Assembly (NCBI RefSeq): GCF_001650195.1 | Contig: NZ_LXYR01000042.1 | Coordinates: forward strand, 1-46,736 | DNA length: 46,736 nt | Reading direction: 5' to 3' | Origin: Phormidesmis priestleyi BC1401 | GTDB taxonomy: Bacteria > Cyanobacteriota > Cyanobacteriia > Leptolyngbyales > Leptolyngbyaceae | In this document: one piece after another, positions 6,676 through 13,367 of the stretch | How positions within the stretch are numbered: position 1 is the first letter of the stretch | How the letters are laid out: each line of letters starts with the position of its first letter | Notes under the pieces: model-generated | The model's input: the letters and a program-made list of their open reading frames with translations, nothing else | Told to the model about the DNA's origin: nothing | The model's database searches: none | Made by a program: the position numbers and the translations under genes

Positions 6676-7041
6676 AAAAGCCTCCACAGTTAGGGGTGAT
6701 AAATTTCGCCTTATTGAGTCTATATCTCAACAAGCTTCTGCTTATCTTACCACCATTATTGAGAATTTATTTCATTAATGATGAGAGCGATCGGACGAGT
6801 GGAGTGGGGCGATCGCGTTCTGAGAAGAGATACTGAAATTTTCCCTGTATTTCGCTTGTCGAAAGGCAATAGGTGGTGAGGGCTAATAAAGTTCCATTAG
6901 AAATTGGTGCAATTGCTGGTCTTGCAGGGTACACTTTTGCAAGCGAGTTAGGCATCCCTGAGATTAATCTTCGCTTGTAAGAATTCTAAATGCCTAATTG
7001 TGGGCTGAAGATTGCAGAAGACATCTAATCATCACAATATA
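6676..7041. other. Intergenic region at left border of foreign-looking island
   Basis: No convincing gene. The last native-style CGATCG words are at about 6789 and 6811. After 6816 none occurs until 9856. A 35-codon plus-strand frame from about 6865 to 6980 ends in LGIPEINLRL and could be a remnant, but nothing was recognised. The opposite-strand frame 6767-6955 has no support. Confidence 0.4.
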
Positions 7042-8067
7042 ATGACATTTTTAACATCCATTGACCTTTTTGCTGGTGCAGGGGGACTTAGCTACGGACT
7101 CGCGGCAGAGGGATTCCAAGTAAATGCTGCGGTGGAAATTGATCCAGTATCAGCGAAAAGTTACAGTCTCAACCATCCAAATACGAATGTTATAGTCAGT
7201 GATATTCGTCAGGTGAGCGGTCCTCAGATTCTCAAGGAAGCAAAACTTACCCGTGGCGAGTTGGACTTGTTAACTGGTTGCCCACCCTGTCAAGCTTTCT
7301 CCACACTTCGTACGCGGCGGCGGAAGCAACAGTTAAACGATCCAAGTAAAGAACTCATTACGGAGATGCTACGACTGGTACGCTCGATGCGACCCCGTGC
7401 TGTCATTGTAGAAAACGTTCCTGGTCTAGCAGATGATAAGCGCTTTACTAACTTCCAACTTGGTTTGAAACAAGCCGGGTATAAATCTGCATACGCAGTT
7501 CTCAACGCATCTGACTTTGGTGTACCACAGCGCCGCAAGCGGTTAATCCTTGTTGCATTGCGGGGAAGAGAAATCCCCTCAGGTTGGTCAAACTATTCCT
7601 GTGAGGGTAAGACCGTTAGAAGCACAATCAGCGATCTAGCACCAGCAGGAACAAGTGGAGATGTGCTTCATGACATTCCTGAAAATCGAACACCAGCTAT
7701 GATGTCGAGAATCAGAGCAACGCCCAAAGATGGTGGTAGTCGCCGTGATATTCCCTCTGAGTTACAATGTGCCTGCCACGCACACACTGACGGATTCAAA
7801 GATGTCTATGGTCGAATGGCGTGGGACGATATCTCGCCAACTATTACTGGCGGGTGTACAAATCCTTCTAGAGGTCGTTTCCTTCATCCCCAGGAGAACA
7901 GAGCCATAACACTTCGGGAGGCTGCCCTGTTACAAGCATTTCCTTCAGACTATCAATTTTGCCTTGATCGAGGCAAAGAGCATGTTGCTCGTCAGATCGG
8001 AAACGCGTTCCCTCCAGATTTGATTAGACCAATTGCAAGAGTCATCAGCCGCGAGTTGTCAGTATGA
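7042..8067 (+). CDS. DNA (cytosine-5-)-methyltransferase
   Basis: A C5-cytosine methyltransferase that would transfer methyl from S-adenosylmethionine to cytosine in a specific DNA word. The standard motifs occur in order: I (SIDLFAGAGGLSYGL), IV with the catalytic Cys (TGCPPCQAFS), VI (VIVENVPGL), VIII (VPQRRKRLIL), then a target-recognition region of about 100 residues, IX (TLREAALLQAFPSDY) and X (RQIGNAFPPDL). At 341 residues it is complete for the family. ATG at 7042 is used; a TTG ten codons upstream is in frame and no clear ribosome site marks either. Its stop overlaps the start of the ATPase-TOPRIM gene by 4 bases, so the two are probably translated together. The recognition word cannot be read from sequence. 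The gene lacks CGATCG words, unlike its flanks. Confidence 0.93.
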   Translation: MTFLTSIDLFAGAGGLSYGLAAEGFQVNAAVEIDPVSAKSYSLNHPNTNVIVSDIRQVSGPQILKEAKLTRGELDLLTGCPPCQAFSTLRTRRRKQQLNDPSKELITEMLRLVRSMRPRAVIVENVPGLADDKRFTNFQLGLKQAGYKSAYAVLNASDFGVPQRRKRLILVALRGREIPSGWSNYSCEGKTVRSTISDLAPAGTSGDVLHDIPENRTPAMMSRIRATPKDGGSRRDIPSELQCACHAHTDGFKDVYGRMAWDDISPTITGGCTNPSRGRFLHPQENRAITLREAALLQAFPSDYQFCLDRGKEHVARQIGNAFPPDLIRPIARVISRELSV

Positions 8068-9800
8068 GCCAGAAACCCCCCGTAGATACTCTCGAAAAGA
8101 GTATTAGGGCACTTGAAAATAAAGAAACCTACATTTGCAGCCTTCGCTTTCCCAACTATCGGAATCTTCGATTTGACAGCGAGATTCCGTTTGATTTTCC
8201 AATCACGGTCTTGCTTGGTCGAAACGGGACAAACAAGAGTTCTATTCTTCACGCTTTGTACGGTAGCCCAGATCGTAAAACTGTTGCAGACTTTTGGTTT
8301 GAGACAGAGCTTGACACAATTCCACCTGAACGTGATGGACGCAAACAGAGCATCATTCATAGCTACCGTCAAAATGATGGCGAAGTCGTTGAATGTATTA
8401 AGGCTCGTGCCCCGCGTGGAGCTAAAGATCCTGATTATTGGGAGGCGGTTAAACATAGTAAAACCTATGGACTCTCTGATAGTGGCACTCGAATTAGTCC
8501 TATTAAACTTAAAGTCATGCATTTGGACTTCCGAGGTGAATTGCCCGCTTTTGATAAATACTTCTACTTTCCCGATCCACAGCATCTTGCGGAGCGTGCC
8601 CGTTCTGCAAAAGAAAATGGGACGCTCCGCAGAGGGTACCGAAAACAAGACTATCTCAGACGACGTTCAGGACGGCTGAAGAAGGAAATTGAAAAGAAGG
8701 GCATTCCACTAGCTAAAGACGAGTTAGAAGTGCTGAAGTATATTCTTGAGCGTGACTACATTAGTGGAAAGATGCTGAGACACTCACTGTTCCACGGGCA
8801 TGAGGGCTGGACAATATTGTTTGAGACAAATCACTTTAATGGGTATTCAGATGCATTCGCTGGTAGTGGTGAGTCAGCCGCCGCACTGCTTGTACACAAT
8901 ATATTACAGGCTCCAGAGGGGTCGTTGGTTCTCCTAGACGAACCTGAAACATCCCTTCACCCTCGTGCCCAAAAACGAATGATAGAATTCATCGCACACC
9001 AAGCTGTGCGAAGATCGCTTCAGATTGTGATTGCAACTCACTCTATTTATCTTGCGGAGAATCTTCCTCAGGAAGCGATTCGAGTACTTGTACTTGAGAA
9101 AAATGGCACTGTAACCGTAAGAACAGATCTTTCAGCAAATGAAGCGCTACATGAGATCGGTACTCTCCCTCCTGGGAAAACTATCTTGGTTGAGGATGAG
9201 CGCGCAAAACACATTGTTATTTCAGCTTTTTCAGCTTTGTCGAGTCATGCCCTACAAGAGTTTCAGGTTTTGGTTTTGAAAGGTGGAGCTTCACGAATAT
9301 ATAATCATATCCAAGCCTATGCCAATTCTGAGAGAAAGGACATTTTTGTTGTTTTTGATGGAGACAATAAGCCTAAAGAACCTATTCCTGAAGAGGGGTC
9401 TCTACCCCAAGGAAAGAGTGATTTGGATAAACTAATTCAGAAAATCACATGTGGAAATGATAAAAATGGTCCTAAGCTTAACTTTGTAGACATAGATGAG
9501 AGAACCCACTACATTCGCTTTCTAAAAAGGTCTGTACATTTTTTACCTGAACTGACTCCTGAACACCTCGTTTGGGACGAAAATGCAGCTAAAGAACTCC
9601 TTGATGGAGAAGAGCTACCGCTTGAAGTTTCACAAACAGGAGACTTCAAAGAACGAATTCGCCTTCTTGCAGAAAGAATTCCAGGCTTGGATGCTGATGC
9701 TGTCTTCAAAAATCTTCTTGCCAGCCTGTTGAAGGGGGAAAGCCAGCGTAAATCGGATCTCATGGATGTTGTTAGAAAGATTCGATCTGCCGTTGTTTAA
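8064..9800 (+). CDS. AAA/ABC-type ATPase with C-terminal TOPRIM domain (OLD-like putative nuclease)
   Basis: This 578-residue protein resembles overcoming-lysogenization-defect (OLD) nucleases, which join an ABC-class ATPase to a metal-dependent TOPRIM nuclease. The parts seen are Walker A at 52-59 (GRNGTNKS, Asn replacing the Gly before Lys), a signature-like GSGE at 267-270, Walker B at 288-294 (LVLLDEPETSLHP), an H-loop ATHS at 324-327, and a TOPRIM region with Glu377 (TILVEDERAKHI) and the Asp pair 432/434 (VVFDGDNKP). The start ATGA overlaps the methyltransferase stop. OLD-like proteins such as GajA of Gabija act in phage defence with a helicase partner; here the partner is a cytosine methyltransferase. 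Cleavage of unmethylated DNA is a reasonable guess but unproven. Non-defence ATPase roles are not excluded. Confidence 0.85.
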   Translation: MSQKPPVDTLEKSIRALENKETYICSLRFPNYRNLRFDSEIPFDFPITVLLGRNGTNKSSILHALYGSPDRKTVADFWFETELDTIPPERDGRKQSIIHSYRQNDGEVVECIKARAPRGAKDPDYWEAVKHSKTYGLSDSGTRISPIKLKVMHLDFRGELPAFDKYFYFPDPQHLAERARSAKENGTLRRGYRKQDYLRRRSGRLKKEIEKKGIPLAKDELEVLKYILERDYISGKMLRHSLFHGHEGWTILFETNHFNGYSDAFAGSGESAAALLVHNILQAPEGSLVLLDEPETSLHPRAQKRMIEFIAHQAVRRSLQIVIATHSIYLAENLPQEAIRVLVLEKNGTVTVRTDLSANEALHEIGTLPPGKTILVEDERAKHIVISAFSALSSHALQEFQVLVLKGGASRIYNHIQAYANSERKDIFVVFDGDNKPKEPIPEEGSLPQGKSDLDKLIQKITCGNDKNGPKLNFVDIDERTHYIRFLKRSVHFLPELTPEHLVWDENAAKELLDGEELPLEVSQTGDFKERIRLLAERIPGLDADAVFKNLLASLLKGESQRKSDLMDVVRKIRSAVV

Positions 9801-9951
9801 GTGTGATCGCTTCTCAGAGGTTCCTGCACTTCCCATCTGCATTACTGAAGGGACACGATCGAGGAAGTGATAGCTACTTTGAAGGATGCGATCGGAGGTT
9901 AGCTCAACGTTATCAATAGTTTTGAAGTTCCTTGAATCTTTAAAACTAAAA

Positions 9952-9982
9952 AGGTCAGAACAAGCATCGTTTGCCCTGACCT
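9952..9982 (-). terminator. Rho-independent terminator of desC
   Basis: On the minus strand, AGGTCAG and CTGACCT form a stem around a 17-base loop and are followed by TTTTTAG. It lies 18 bases past the desC stop codon. Confidence 0.7.
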
Positions 9983-10000
9983 AATCAAATTATGAGTCGT

Positions 10001-10864
10001 TTATTTATCTGTTGGAGGCAGAACGAGTTTCTTCACCAAGCCCAACCGATCGAGACCTCTAATCGCCCACCATGTCATATCAATTTCCCACCACTTCCAG
10101 CCTGCTTTTGCCACATTGGGGTAAGCGTGGTGGTTGTTGTGCCAGCCTTCGCCGTAGGTGAGAATCGCCGCCCACCAAAGATTCCGGGAGTTGTCGTCTG
10201 GCTCAAATGTGCGATAGCCCGTTATGTGACTCGCAGAATTGATCAACCAGGTGCTGTGCCAGAGCAAAACGGCTCTCACAAACACCCCGTAAATCACAAA
10301 CGACCAACCACCTGCTAAATAAAGCGCCACCCCAACTGGGATTTGAAGCAACAAAAAGTACTTATTTATCCAGCGATAGAACGGGTCACGATCGAGGTCA
10401 GGCGCAAATTTCTTACACTCGTTGTAGTCAAAAAACTTCGACTGCGGATAGAACAACCAGAGCATATGACTCCACCAAAATCCGCGCTTTGCCGAATAGG
10501 GATCAAGATTCACATCTTCGGTGTATAGGTGATGCTGCCGATGCCCTGCGACCCAAAAAATCGGTCCGCCCTGCAAGGCTAACGCACCAATCAGCGTGAT
10601 AAATCGCTCTAACGGTTTCGGAACTTGAAAACTGCGGTGCGTCAGCAAACGGTGATATCCCAAGCAGATGCCAATGCTGCCAAACAGCCAGTGCAGCACC
10701 AACGCCACACCCAACGCTGACCACGAGAAAAACCAGGGAGCCAGCAGCGCGATCGCGTGAAACGTCCCAAAAAATCCGACGTTCACCCAATCTAGTTTGG
10801 GTTCTTCTTGCAGCGGGGGCAACGGTTCACTCGAAACTGTAGATTTAATAGAAGTAGGGGTCAT
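10001..10864 (-). CDS. desC: Acyl-lipid/acyl-CoA delta-9 fatty acid desaturase
   Basis: A membrane di-iron desaturase that introduces the first double bond into stearoyl/palmitoyl chains of membrane lipids, using ferredoxin in cyanobacteria. The three histidine boxes are intact: HRLLTHR (71-77), HRQHH (108-112) and HNNHH (242-246). Four hydrophobic spans surround them, as is usual for this family, and 287 residues is a normal length. The gene is transcribed divergently from the TetR-type regulator at 11062, with about 200 bases between them containing two palindromic sites, so that regulator probably controls it. A terminator follows. The exact position specificity (delta-9) is inferred from family resemblance. 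Confidence 0.9.
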   Translation of the reverse strand: MTPTSIKSTVSSEPLPPLQEEPKLDWVNVGFFGTFHAIALLAPWFFSWSALGVALVLHWLFGSIGICLGYHRLLTHRSFQVPKPLERFITLIGALALQGGPIFWVAGHRQHHLYTEDVNLDPYSAKRGFWWSHMLWLFYPQSKFFDYNECKKFAPDLDRDPFYRWINKYFLLLQIPVGVALYLAGGWSFVIYGVFVRAVLLWHSTWLINSASHITGYRTFEPDDNSRNLWWAAILTYGEGWHNNHHAYPNVAKAGWKWWEIDMTWWAIRGLDRLGLVKKLVLPPTDK

Positions 10865-10989
10865 AAAAATCCTTTATCTAAATGACGAGATCAATCTGCG
10901 TTCAATCAGGCAACCCGATCGATAAACCCCTCAACGCACGAGTAGACATCTGCGCTTCTGCTAGAAGACCGTTACAGTAGAGGAGTGAA

Positions 10990-11006
10990 TGCAAGTGCTG
11001 CTTACA
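10990..11006. promoter_or_regulatory. Imperfect palindrome, candidate TetR operator 1
   Basis: TGCAAGTGCTGCTTACA matches the perfect palindrome at 11037 in 15 of 17 positions and sits 47 bases upstream of it, between desC and the tetR-type gene. Confidence 0.6.
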
Positions 11007-11036
11007 TCCATCACCTTAACAAGTTTTCGTGATTTC

Positions 11037-11053
11037 TGCAAGTGCTACTTGCA
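11037..11053. promoter_or_regulatory. Perfect 7-3-7 palindrome, candidate TetR operator 2
   Basis: TGCAAGT-GCT-ACTTGCA has perfect 7-base arms and ends 8 bases before the ATG of the regulator gene, covering its ribosome-binding region. This placement suits autorepression and, together with operator 1, control of the divergent desC promoter. Confidence 0.65.
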
Positions 11054-11061
11054 TTTTGTCT

Positions 11062-12285
11062 ATGTCTTCTCAACGAAACCCCACCCGACAACGGTTAATC
11101 ACCGCTGCATTAGAGCTATTTGCCTCGCAAGGAGTGACTGAAACGACGACCAAGCAAATCGCAGAACGAGCCGATGTCAACGAAGTAACGCTATTTCGGC
11201 AGTTTGGCAATAAACACGGGCTGCTGTTAGCTGTGATTGAAGAAGCCGCCGTGTTTACGACCCTGGGGCAAACGCTGGTTGAGCAAGCTAATCAGACAAG
11301 TAGCCTGCATCAAGCGCTCAGCAAATATGCCACTGCCTGTCTGCAAGCCTTAGAACGAGTGCCGGAAGTGGTGCGATCGGTGGTCGGTGAGGCGGGGCAA
11401 TATCCGTCTGAAAATCGACAGGCATTAGGGCAAGGATTCACGCAAGCCAATCGCTATGTTGCTGAATATTTTCAAACCGTCATCGATCGAGGGCAGCTAG
11501 ACAGCTATCTATCAGCCGAACGACTCGCAAGTTTGCTAAATGGAATGCTATTAGGATATGCCGTGATTGAGTTTACGAGCGAATTCCATGATCTCTGGCA
11601 AGACCGACAGGATTTTTTAGAGAATCTCGTCACCTTGTTTTTGCATGGAGCCGTCTCACCGTCGGAGTCGTCAAGCAGTTTGGTGCGGGTGGAACGGGAC
11701 ATGATCGAGCGAGTCGCCGACCTCCCGGCTCAGTTAGTGCATTCGATTTTGCAGCGCGCCAAAAAACAAGGATTGCAGCCCTACGCGTGGGCTTATGTGT
11801 TGTTTGGAGCAGGACTAAGTGTGGCAGAGGTGGCGAGACTGGAGCGATCGCATTATATTCACGACGCTCATCAGCAGCTTTTGCAGGTGACTCAGGGCGA
11901 TGTGCGGCAGGTGCCTGTCAATCAATGGATTATGGGCAAACGCTATGGTTCTTACACCAAAAATCCGTTGACTCAGTGGATCAAAAGCCGCAAAGATCAG
12001 CAATCTGCCCTGTTTCTCAACGAGTCTGGAAGACCTCTATCTGAAACCGATCTGCGGCAACAATGGCAAGAGTTAACGCAAGAATTTCTGACTCCAGAGG
12101 GGCAACCTCCAACGATCAAGCAACCTCAGCAAACTTGGTGCATCGAAATGTTGATGAGGGGAATCAAGTTAAATGATCTGCAAATTCTGACAGGTTGGAG
12201 TGCCGATCGCCTCCAACCCTATGAGCATCGAGCTAGAGAAAAAGCTGCTTTAGAAGAAGCCATTCGTCTCGATCAGAAAGTTTAA
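11062..12285 (+). CDS. TetR/AcrR family regulator fused to a degenerate tyrosine-recombinase-like domain
   Basis: Numbering is from ATG at 11062 (407 residues); an in-frame GTG at 11029 would place the start upstream of the palindromic operator and is less likely. Residues about 7-53 are a TetR helix-turn-helix (LITAALELFASQGVTETTTK, then VNEVTLFRQFGNK). Residues 55-200 are the ligand/dimer region. About 222-407 read like the catalytic domain of a phage-type integrase: YVLFGAGLSVAEVARLERSH, ALFLNESGRPLSETDL, EMLMRGIKLNDLQILTGWS and PYEHRAREKAALEEA. The catalytic Arg (GLR) is Ser here and the HxLRHT box is PQQTWCIE, so no recombinase activity is expected; the domain probably aids DNA binding or oligomer contact. 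The gene diverges from desC and may adjust membrane unsaturation. Confidence 0.82.
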   Translation: MSSQRNPTRQRLITAALELFASQGVTETTTKQIAERADVNEVTLFRQFGNKHGLLLAVIEEAAVFTTLGQTLVEQANQTSSLHQALSKYATACLQALERVPEVVRSVVGEAGQYPSENRQALGQGFTQANRYVAEYFQTVIDRGQLDSYLSAERLASLLNGMLLGYAVIEFTSEFHDLWQDRQDFLENLVTLFLHGAVSPSESSSSLVRVERDMIERVADLPAQLVHSILQRAKKQGLQPYAWAYVLFGAGLSVAEVARLERSHYIHDAHQQLLQVTQGDVRQVPVNQWIMGKRYGSYTKNPLTQWIKSRKDQQSALFLNESGRPLSETDLRQQWQELTQEFLTPEGQPPTIKQPQQTWCIEMLMRGIKLNDLQILTGWSADRLQPYEHRAREKAALEEAIRLDQKV

Positions 12286-12302
12286 AGAGCGACAGAACCT
12301 AA

Positions 12303-13022
12303 CTACTGAACCAATCCTGCTCTAAGTGCGCGCACTGCAACCTGAGTCCGATCGTCAGCACACAGCTTATTCAAAATGTTGCGAACGTGCGTTTTGACCG
12401 TTCCGACCGTAATGTATAGCTTCTCAGCAATTTGGGCATTGCTGCATCCATCGACGATTAGCCGCAGCACTTCTAACTCGCGCTCAGTGAGCGGATAGGT
12501 CAGCATCATCTCATTATCTTCGTCAGACAAGCGATTGATGTTAATCGTGCTAGAGGCAGGAGCCGCCGTCTGGTCAGGAGGAGCTTGCACCTGATGAAGC
12601 ACAATTCGAGCGATCGCCGGATCGATCCAAGCGTTGCCTTCTGCGGTGGTTTTGACGGCTTCAGACAAGCGATTAAAGCTCGTGTCTTTCATGCAATAAG
12701 AATCTGCCCCAGCCGCAAATGCCGCCAGCACCACAGATTCGTCATCTTGCATGGTCATGATCAACACGCCAGTCTTGGAGGCAGATTCTTCGGCGGCTTG
12801 AGATTTTTTGAAGCGCTGGGTTAACTCAATGCCCGTCATGTCGGGTAAGCCCACATCGACGATCGCAACATCAGGTCGAGTAGATTCTAGCAGTTTTAGC
12901 CCTGATTTTGCGTCTCTTGCCTCACCGACAATTTCAATGTCTGGTTGCTGCTGCAAAATTGCACGAATGCCAAACCGGGTCAGGTCATGATCTTCAATTA
13001 AAGCTACACGAATCACGTTCAT
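12303..13022 (-). CDS. NarL/LuxR-family response regulator
   Basis: A two-component transcription regulator of 239 residues. The receiver domain (1-130) has the acidic pair Glu10-Asp11, the phosphoacceptor Asp56 (VAIVDVGLPD) and the Lys in YCMKDTS. The LuxR-type helix-turn-helix (about 175-239) reads LTERELEVLRLIVDGCSNAQ and then VGTVKTHVRNIL. A 45-residue linker rich in Gln/Pro/Ala joins them. No kinase is adjacent. The upstream region (13023-13367) holds an 11-base inverted repeat at 13110-13120/13159-13169 that might be an operator. Target genes are unknown. Confidence 0.9.
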   Translation of the reverse strand: MNVIRVALIEDHDLTRFGIRAILQQQPDIEIVGEARDAKSGLKLLESTRPDVAIVDVGLPDMTGIELTQRFKKSQAAEESASKTGVLIMTMQDDESVVLAAFAAGADSYCMKDTSFNRLSEAVKTTAEGNAWIDPAIARIVLHQVQAPPDQTAAPASSTININRLSDEDNEMMLTYPLTERELEVLRLIVDGCSNAQIAEKLYITVGTVKTHVRNILNKLCADDRTQVAVRALRAGLVQ

Positions 13023-13367
13023 CGTTCAACTCTCCATTAACCTTGCATACTGTAGGGCAAACATCAATTTGAGATTACTGATGTTGTTTTGAACAGGGAA
13101 AGCGACCCAACAAGGAATCAATAATACCTCTTAAGTTCAATATTAGAAGGTCAAATTCTGATTCCTTGTCTACCTGAAGACAGAGCTTGAATGAGTGCTA
13201 TTAATAATCGTTGTTCAGACTATAAGTTCATGAGCAAAAAGTTTAGCTCTAAAAATAATTTATTGGCTGGTGATGTGATTGCTATAGCGAATGCTGTTTA
13301 ATCACTGTAGTGAACGCCATTTAATAGAGATCTCGTTGCAAAAAATTGAATTTTAGGAATACTGGAA
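13023..13367. other. Intergenic region with 11-base inverted repeat
   Basis: No gene is supported. ACAAGGAATCA (13110-13120) and TGATTCCTTGT (13159-13169) form a perfect inverted repeat about 90 bases upstream of the NarL-type regulator start. It could be a regulatory site or a small hairpin. Confidence 0.4.

Follow-up and report, generated by a model that had tools for sequence, protein, structure and literature searches.

The window, by which we mean the whole 46.7-kb stretch of Phormidesmis priestleyi DNA that was analysed (46,736 nucleotides), carries two complete open reading frames that overlap by the sequence ATGA, as the original prediction had stated and as direct reading confirms. 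The features of the locus are as follows:

7042..8067, + strand: C5-cytosine DNA methyltransferase gene (341 aa from the ATG at 7042; a TTG start at 7012 would give 351 aa)
8064..9800, + strand: OLD-like ABC-ATPase/TOPRIM protein gene (578 aa)
8064..8067, + strand: four-base stop/start overlap ATGA, read from the sequence
8217..8243, + strand: Walker A motif GRNGTNKSS, residues 52-60, from a 22-row alignment
8931..8948, + strand: Walker B motif LLDEPE, residues 290-295, from the same 22-row alignment
9165..9797, + strand: TOPRIM and C-terminal helical domain, residues 368-578, from the predicted fold and invariant residues

The methyltransferase matches the Pfam family DNA_methylase (2.3e-61), its best PADLOC profile is DruM2 (3.1e-87; MTase_II, 4.2e-86), and C83 of its PCQ motif is invariant in all seven aligned rows. 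A promoter scan of the window returned four promoter-like sites against 4.7 expected by chance, with none upstream of the methyltransferase. The pair is flanked by a cupin-like gene and a desaturase, judged by eye from the open reading frames. In a genome of the same genus (G030) the alignment at the place of the pair is confined to the right flank (window 9935-13188) and, therefore, no clean insertion boundary can be drawn.

The second gene product is, on the basis of modelling, an OLD-type ABC-ATPase/TOPRIM protein and a predicted nuclease. Its Pfam matches are AAA_21 (2.4e-17) and AAA_15 (3.6e-17), and the same search gave no TOPRIM match. The N-terminal ABC ATPase has K58, D292/E293 and H326 (the H-loop) in 22 of 22 rows; G52, N54, G55, S59 and S60 of Walker A and the entire Walker B motif (L290 to E295) are likewise invariant. 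Residue 57 is Asn in 15 rows, Gly in six and Ser in one, and since Asn is found in only 15 of the 22, the suggestion that Asn before Lys in GTNKS marks a distinct subfamily did not hold. The TOPRIM identity rests on the predicted fold together with E377, D432 and D434, the metal-A residues, which are invariant in 22 of 22 rows. In the TsOLD report (PMC7049728) the metal-A residues are E377, D431 and D433, and D381 is the metal-B acid (E404 in BpOLD) at the position that is occupied here by A381, four residues after the TOPRIM Glu (Ala in 21 rows, Leu in one). The earlier assignment to an OLD-type TOPRIM is supported by the predicted fold and the metal-A residues. Known OLDs have further ligands in an S/T-x-E motif and a basic residue; further along our protein, E500 and K529 are present in 22 of 22 rows and T498 in 14, and, judged from order and spacing rather than from superposed coordinates, the set would be equivalent to T506, E508 and K562 of BpOLD.

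The AlphaFold2 model of residues 368-578 (m53e862398993) has a mean pLDDT of 93.5 and a pTM of 0.89. With VIA-align, rows 1-21 for this TOPRIM-helical part are all OLD, PARIS, GajA or retron TOPRIM chains, headed by PARIS chain 8ux9_A (Z 10.3, rmsd 3.6, 155 residues aligned), with BpOLD 6nk8_B at Z 9.1 (rmsd 5.0, 176 aligned). Foldseek ranks BpOLD and XccOLD first, above the PARIS chain, with none of these TOPRIM chains at E <= 0.001 (best 1.4e-3), and a profile of the TOPRIM part searched against PDB sequences gave seven matches, none of them OLD or TOPRIM. For the nuclease as a whole, the best Foldseek match in the PDB is TsOLD 6p74 (E 1e-12), followed by GajA. VIA-align of the full model matches SMC, Rad50 and PtuA heads as well as 6p74 (Z 15.6, 354 residues, rmsd 16.4); the SMC heads outrank 6p74, which we take to reflect the common ATPase head.

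The likeness to PARIS bears on a scenario that we hold to be rather unlikely. Here the OLD-like protein would guard the methyltransferase and its mark, responding when a phage attacks either one or when either is lost; it would then kill the cell or bring it to a standstill, possibly with RNA rather than invading DNA as the substrate that it cuts. We take chain A of 8ux9, the top VIA-align match, to be AriB because chain B is AriA, and AriB, the TOPRIM protein of PARIS, is described in PMC12409363 as a tRNase that cleaves tRNA-Lys and not a DNase. PARIS itself senses the phage anti-restriction protein Ocr (PMC12839542), and the HEC-04 homologue IbfA limits a phage by what the authors of PMC12111858 term abortive infection. 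Exchange of the methyltransferase would also be easy under such a scheme. However, PARIS has AriB as a protein of its own, whereas the ATPase and TOPRIM are fused here, as in the DNA-cutting OLD proteins and GajA; the Foldseek ranking favors the OLD chains; and the sequences offer no hint of an RNA substrate.

The original prediction proposed to look for recurrence of the pair across genomes, and the two genes do recur together. We found 32 loci (7 genomes and 25 viral contigs, some of them near-copies) with a relative of the full-length type of nuclease, and a C5-methyltransferase is present in all 32, adjoining the nuclease in 31 and lying behind a transposase in one, so that homologues are not mostly apart. 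This would be the layout of a Type II restriction-modification system if the predicted nuclease is active. The pair occurs in three gene arrangements and at least three phyla, with four-base overlaps in two further loci (L008, L011) and one-base overlaps in two others (L009, L010); the nuclease is spread over three frames in L011, and L023 has retained the methyltransferase beside a broken nuclease frame. By contrast, the methyltransferase is absent from the available flanks of 13 more distant relatives of the HEC-04/IbfA type, which are single genes; these flanks mostly extend 0.9-4 kb per side, but one side is nearly missing in L014 and L035. Profile scores separate the two groups, with nothing between 142 and 424 bits; the profile (A3) was made from eight paired nucleases and the high scores of their kin are thus partly by construction. 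Taken together, these comparisons support the pair being a conserved two-gene unit.

The reach of the searches varied with the query. Viral contigs yielded no relative when searched with the window nuclease alone, and the 25 were found by alignment-based searches. One of the 194 genomes in the class of G255 gave a match, G255 itself. Among phage records, neither the window nuclease nor the two E. coli pairs used as queries had a match; a single weak one covers 26% of a prophage nuclease at 27.8%. Two queries gave 18 and 28 matches among plasmid records, none spanning 80% of the query; six of the 18 matched records were examined. The nuclease also matches phrog_3940, which has no known function.

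Mobile DNA often carries relatives of the methyltransferase (they occur in 857 of 72,556 plasmid records), as would be expected if two independent defence genes had merely come to lie side by side on one mobile cassette. We consider this highly improbable and reject it, as the association is constant across three gene orders and at least three phyla and persists through partner exchange. The evidence for exchange comes from two trees, each with 25 paired rows, that is, 23 of the 32 loci plus L083 and L085 from E. coli. Seven near-copies (L022, L038, L039, L041, L048, L050 and L055) were omitted, as were L023 and L011 on account of their nuclease frames; L002 and L008 are one record, and the OLD tree holds 10 of the 13 HEC-04-like rows (without L016, L033 and L035). 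The paired nucleases form one clade with support of 100/100 and the HEC-04-like rows outside; this tree and the bit-score gap are the independent signs of a paired-nuclease group. The paired methyltransferases do not form one clade (monophyly rejected, AU p 3e-55), which indicates that partners have been exchanged, and every replacement is again a C5-methyltransferase. It is possible, albeit doubtful, that this is a new kind of ATP-dependent restriction-modification in which the methyltransferase doubles as the targeting subunit: it would find the word, signal whether it is methylated and thereby license an OLD ATPase-TOPRIM nuclease that is itself blind to sequence. This would explain both how the nuclease lineage outlived swaps between methyltransferases whose target-recognition regions diverge and why the replacements are always C5-methyltransferases.

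The E. coli searches covered 5,426 genomes and found the pair in 49 (8 + 31 + 10, a count that may miss lineages too diverged for these queries), with both genes complete in all 49 and no half-lost pair among the matches. Nine loci were examined in detail; the other 40 have full query cover and both genes named under the match. All nine, including that of the laboratory strain ATCC 8739, are prophage-like, with the pair amid phage genes and on the strand opposite its immediate neighbours. A role in defence is suggested by this context, that is, by prophage carriage and by likeness to known defence effectors. One could instead suppose that the pair serves the carrying element, in prophage replication, DNA processing or shielding from host restriction, and the position and strand of the E. 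coli copies and the match to phrog_3940 are in keeping with this. Against it, the window copy and those of L008, L009 and L010 have no recognisable phage gene beside them, by eye, and defence and fitness functions are common among the cargo carried at such sites in prophages; we regard this alternative as quite improbable. Improbable, too, is a selfish addiction cassette, whereby a cell that loses the methyltransferase would have its own sites laid open to the nuclease, with phage defence as a by-product. Prophage carriage and the want of half-lost copies in E. coli fit such a cassette, but it follows the same self-marking logic as restriction-modification and differs mainly in what is selected; the arrangement in L023 is one that any self-marking model permits.

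We favor the possibility, to which we give an even chance, that the pair is one defence module acting as an ATP-gated restriction-modification system. In this working model the C5-methyltransferase would mark host DNA by methylating cytosine within a target word, and the OLD-like protein would be kept off methylated DNA, or restrained by its ATP-bound state, and would attack unmarked DNA such as that of an infecting phage or an entering plasmid. We infer here that the OLD-like protein cuts DNA, that methylation serves as the mark of self and that ATP is the gate. Our reasoning is that: (i) the two genes are paired in all 32 loci and all 49 E. coli carriers, and not within the available flanks of the HEC-04-like relatives; (ii) the pairing persists through partner exchange; (iii) the same methyltransferase family lies beside other candidate restriction effectors; and (iv) the catalytic residues are invariant and the TOPRIM fold is OLD-like. 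Four points argue against it: the presence of Ala in place of the metal-B acid of known OLDs in 21 of 22 rows; the modelled TOPRIM part being closest, by VIA-align Z, to a chain from PARIS, whose AriB is a tRNase; the awkwardness of a methyltransferase swap when both proteins would have to read one and the same word; and the window, L008 and L010 copies having no evident defence gene alongside, by eye. If the model is true, a clade kept with a C5-methyltransferase adds modification as a control of an OLD effector, and discrimination between self and non-self by OLD-type nucleases becomes genetically testable.

OLD nucleases occur alone, with a helicase, with retrons or as split PARIS pairs. 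Our protein resembles OLD class 1 (TsOLD, P2 Old) and class 2 (GajA of Gabija) in having an ABC ATPase fused to a TOPRIM with the E/D/D metal-A triad, a Glu and a Lys past the TOPRIM core and a C-terminal helical region. It differs from these in that class 1 has no partner and class 2 has a UvrD-like helicase, whereas here the partner is a C5-methyltransferase; in having Ala where known OLDs have the metal-B acid at i+4; and in an AGSGE that is invariant where the ABC signature lies, a signature reported in PMC7049728 as degenerate in class 1. Gabija was rejected as no adjacent UvrD-like GajB is seen (by eye in the window; the annotated neighbours in E. coli are phage genes), and a retron (class 3 OLD) as no reverse transcriptase is annotated near the nine examined E. 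coli loci or evident by eye among the window frames. PARIS also has an OLD-type ABC ATPase and a TOPRIM, but on two proteins (AriA and AriB) rather than in one 578-aa frame, and is not known to include a methyltransferase; it, too, was rejected. The large helicase DruE, which lies beside DruM in Druantia, exceeds 918 aa; as this is the length of the longest frame listed in the window (end-crossing frames excluded), there is no DruE-sized partner, and Druantia was rejected despite the DruM2 score. The best PADLOC profile for the nuclease is HEC-04/IbfA (PDLC04149, 1.3e-32), which likewise joins ATPase and TOPRIM in one protein. However, residues 215-443 match only 163-386 of its 494 positions (about 45% of the profile, 111 bits in total), as compared with 716 bits over 2-489 for a HEC-04 gene (L012), and this candidate was set aside given the partial match, the separate clade and the lack of this methyltransferase family in the HEC-04-like flanks. 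Krishnan et al. (2020) is reportedly the classification paper for ABC-ATPase-anchored systems. Such restriction-modification-like systems from the Aravind group are said in PMC12839542 to couple OLD-ABC ATPases with nucleases, and our pair may be among them.

The other half of the comparison is the methyltransferase. Elsewhere, the same family adjoins other candidate restriction effectors, namely HEPN/GmrSD, Vsr, BpuJI-type endonuclease and GHKL proteins (PADLOC REase_II set), as seen in the neighbours of 15 non-OLD methyltransferases (five loci named by Pfam, the rest by eye). Precedent comes from published neighbourhoods of MORC, cytosine methylase and Vsr (PMC2292703). The C5-methyltransferase modules with MORC/GHKL, Vsr or HEPN-GmrSD are alike in combining this family with one or two candidate effector genes, and differ from our pair in the effector, which for us is of the OLD-TOPRIM type. 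The earlier view that no named system has a Dcm-type enzyme as sole partner held for the PADLOC-DB 2023 and NCBIfam models shown, which gave no close match to the pair, and for a literature search, without bioRxiv preprints and with few subscription papers, that found no paper naming it. We conclude that this is a recurring, apparently unnamed two-gene family, often prophage-borne, whose two products most likely combine to attack unmarked, invading DNA. OLD nucleases and methyltransferase-effector modules were already known; what is apparently newly seen here is a clade of OLD-type nucleases constantly paired with a C5-methyltransferase.

The methyltransferase and ATPase-TOPRIM genes overlap by ATGA, as first noted from the sequence, the end of the first sharing these bases with the start of the second:

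7042-8067, + strand, C5-cytosine methyltransferase gene (Pfam DNA_methylase, 2.3e-61)
8064-9800, + strand, ABC-ATPase/TOPRIM gene (Pfam AAA_21/AAA_15, near 1e-17)

A promoter scan found no promoter-like site between 6600 and the methyltransferase start. The source genome (5.55 Mb) holds one copy of the nuclease and, at locus L107 (contig C39), another methyltransferase of this family, which HEPN-like and GmrSD-like genes adjoin, as judged by eye. Elsewhere in the window, 11029-12285 (+) encodes a 418-aa protein of unusual architecture, in which a TetR_N DNA-binding domain (5.5e-14) precedes a catalytic domain of phage-integrase type (3e-7, residues 235-394).

Whole-length relatives of the nuclease are scarce and scattered. 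Within the order, only the window's own genome has one (1 of 42). In the phylum, 7 of 386 genomes match at 1e-10; in four the match spans the full nuclease and a methyltransferase is present, and in three it is limited to the ATPase C-terminal/TOPRIM part, without a methyltransferase. Scanning genome contigs gave matches in three cyanobacteria (Kastovskya adunca, which is the record of genome G102, Cyanothece sp. SIO2G6 and a Leptolyngbyaceae MAG) and one planctomycete, a Rhodopirellula MAG, in whose phylum 5 of 294 genomes match at 1e-15, whole-length only in Rhodopirellula. Viral contigs (IMG/VR) added 25 loci. Co-occurrence across genomes, a check proposed with the original prediction, bore the pairing out: a C5-methyltransferase accompanies the nuclease at every locus scoring at least 424 bits (7 genomes, 25 viral contigs). 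The other score group, 13 weaker relatives at 90-142 bits, has no such methyltransferase in the flanks examined; in one, on a Rhodococcus plasmid, the adjoining genes are type I restriction genes. Since the profile was made from paired members, the high scores are in part built in; the independent signs of grouping are the score gap and the tree, where a branch at 100/100 parts the 25 paired nucleases from 10 HEC-04-like rows. At loci L011 and L023 the methyltransferase is open and the nuclease frame broken; the split over three frames at L011:1362-3103, on a MAG contig with coverage 2.7, may be assembly error or real decay.

Gene order varies among the 32 loci. The methyltransferase comes first in seven (the window, L008, L009, L010, L011, L036 and L051), the nuclease in 18, and seven are convergent. 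At L053:6790-8001 a Mutator-type transposase (Pfam 4.6e-118) separates genes that abut in the sister locus L054. That pairing is kept despite such re-ordering speaks for a functional link between the two genes that goes further than co-transcription. Among neighbours, the viral contig L036 carries, besides the pair, a second cytosine methyltransferase (profile, 76 bits) with an adjoining Vsr endonuclease (1.9e-31), at 1250-2956, and the Cyanothece pair is followed downstream by a gene at L009:4286-4720 that, by eye, encodes a PIN-like toxin. The surroundings of the pair in genome G345 (L080:6548-10963) suggest a mobile island: close by are a primase-like gene that contains TOPRIM and, as judged by eye, an integrase-like gene.

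In E. coli the pair occurs as three sequence lineages (8, 10 and 31 of 5,426 genomes), whose sum, 49, equals the count from a search in which the nuclease by itself served as a distant query. In each carrier at least 80% of the query of its own lineage, which spans the two genes, is matched at 99% or more, and both genes are named, mostly 'ATP-dependent nuclease' and 'DNA cytosine methyltransferase' at NCBI. Nine loci, including that of the laboratory strain ATCC 8739, were inspected for neighbours. Four lie in prophages, with an antiterminator Q gene at one end and late-region genes, for lysis or otherwise, at the other. The remaining five sit in Rac-like prophages, flanked by a DUF977 gene and one of Hok type. 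All nine pairs are on the strand opposite to their immediate neighbours.

Whether the homologues are found mostly apart has a different answer for each gene: the nuclease is not, at any of the 32 loci of 424 bits or more, and the methyltransferase mostly is in the phylum. At 1e-40 it occurs at 19 places in 18 of 377 phylum genomes, four of which adjoin this nuclease. At the other 15, with neighbours partly checked by Pfam, the adjoining genes are HEPN, in most cases together with a GmrSD-like gene (nine places), Vsr (three) or, once each, a UvrD-type helicase and a BpuJI-type endonuclease; one place has no evident partner. Pairing is not obligate for the methyltransferase, which is a shared module; it is the nuclease clade that depends on its partner. 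On plasmids of Pantoea (L018:3938-6956) and Burkholderia glumae (L019:3911-6289), related methyltransferases adjoin GHKL ATPases with matches to PADLOC models of type II restriction enzymes.

In a tree of 42 rows the methyltransferases of the 25 pairs do not group together; three changes are required by starred branches. When they were constrained to one group against 14 rows that adjoin HEPN, Vsr or GHKL genes, the cost was 263 log-likelihood units (AU p 2.8e-55). Single placements are unsure owing to long branches (OLD_L036, L103 and others) and tool-flagged joins; two interleavings on starred branches are free of both, namely a GHKL-partnered row within an OLD-partnered group and the methyltransferases of L003 and L004 beside those partnered by Vsr. 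We infer the direction of exchange. Among the closest lineages the nuclease, the core of the methyltransferase and its target-recognition region have diverged to similar extents (82/81/80 percent for L037 versus L040, for example); in others the recognition region is faster (73/88/62 for L003 versus L004, 65/77/57 for L053 versus L054), and over all row pairs the rank correlation is 0.44-0.48. These comparisons point to short-term co-inheritance of the pair and long-term exchange of the methyltransferase.

The whole-nuclease model (pLDDT 83.5, pTM 0.61) has TsOLD, GajA and Retron-Eco8 as its best Foldseek matches. For the C-terminal part, residues 368-578 (pLDDT 93.5, pTM 0.89), the first 21 VIA-align rows are a PARIS chain (Z 10.3), BpOLD and XccOLD (8.0-9.1), TsOLD (7.3), and GajA and retron effectors down to 4.9, the next row being a designed protein at 4.2; Foldseek places BpOLD and XccOLD top (E 1.4e-3 to 5.6e-3), with no match at E <=0.001. 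As to the TOPRIM metal site, E377, D432 and D434 correspond to TsOLD E377/D431/D433 (sites from PMC7049728), E500 and K529 are plausibly counterparts of BpOLD E508 and K562, and the second-site acid at i+4 is alanine, so that two-metal catalysis may differ from that of known OLDs. The predicted activity may be nicking only, or RNA cleavage. The PARIS likeness of the TOPRIM part supports the main rival reading, a guard or abortive system. We consider restriction-modification the most likely logic, its enzymatic steps being predicted: the methyltransferase would mark self and the ATPase-TOPRIM nuclease would attack DNA without the mark. A steady need for some C5-methyltransferase, whichever it is, fits marking and sits less easily with a nuclease that recognises a fixed word of its own. 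It suggests that the methyltransferase may supply the information for targeting.

With regard to known families, the available part of a 2023 review (PMC10568477) sets out OLD classes 1-3 and describes no methyltransferase partner for them. PMC12839542 (2026) credits the Aravind group with earlier descriptions of TOPRIM-linked OLD-ABC neighbourhoods and of ABC-ATPase-anchored R-M-like systems; an earlier mention of the pair there is possible, and we therefore do not call it a new category. None of the 25 NCBIfam models (of 36) listed for the nuclease came near its own cut-off, and phrog_3940, of unknown function, matches it at 1.5e-43. The best PADLOC-DB 2023 model is HEC-04 (1.3e-32), which covers part of the protein at 111 bits, whereas a HEC-04 gene scores 716 bits.
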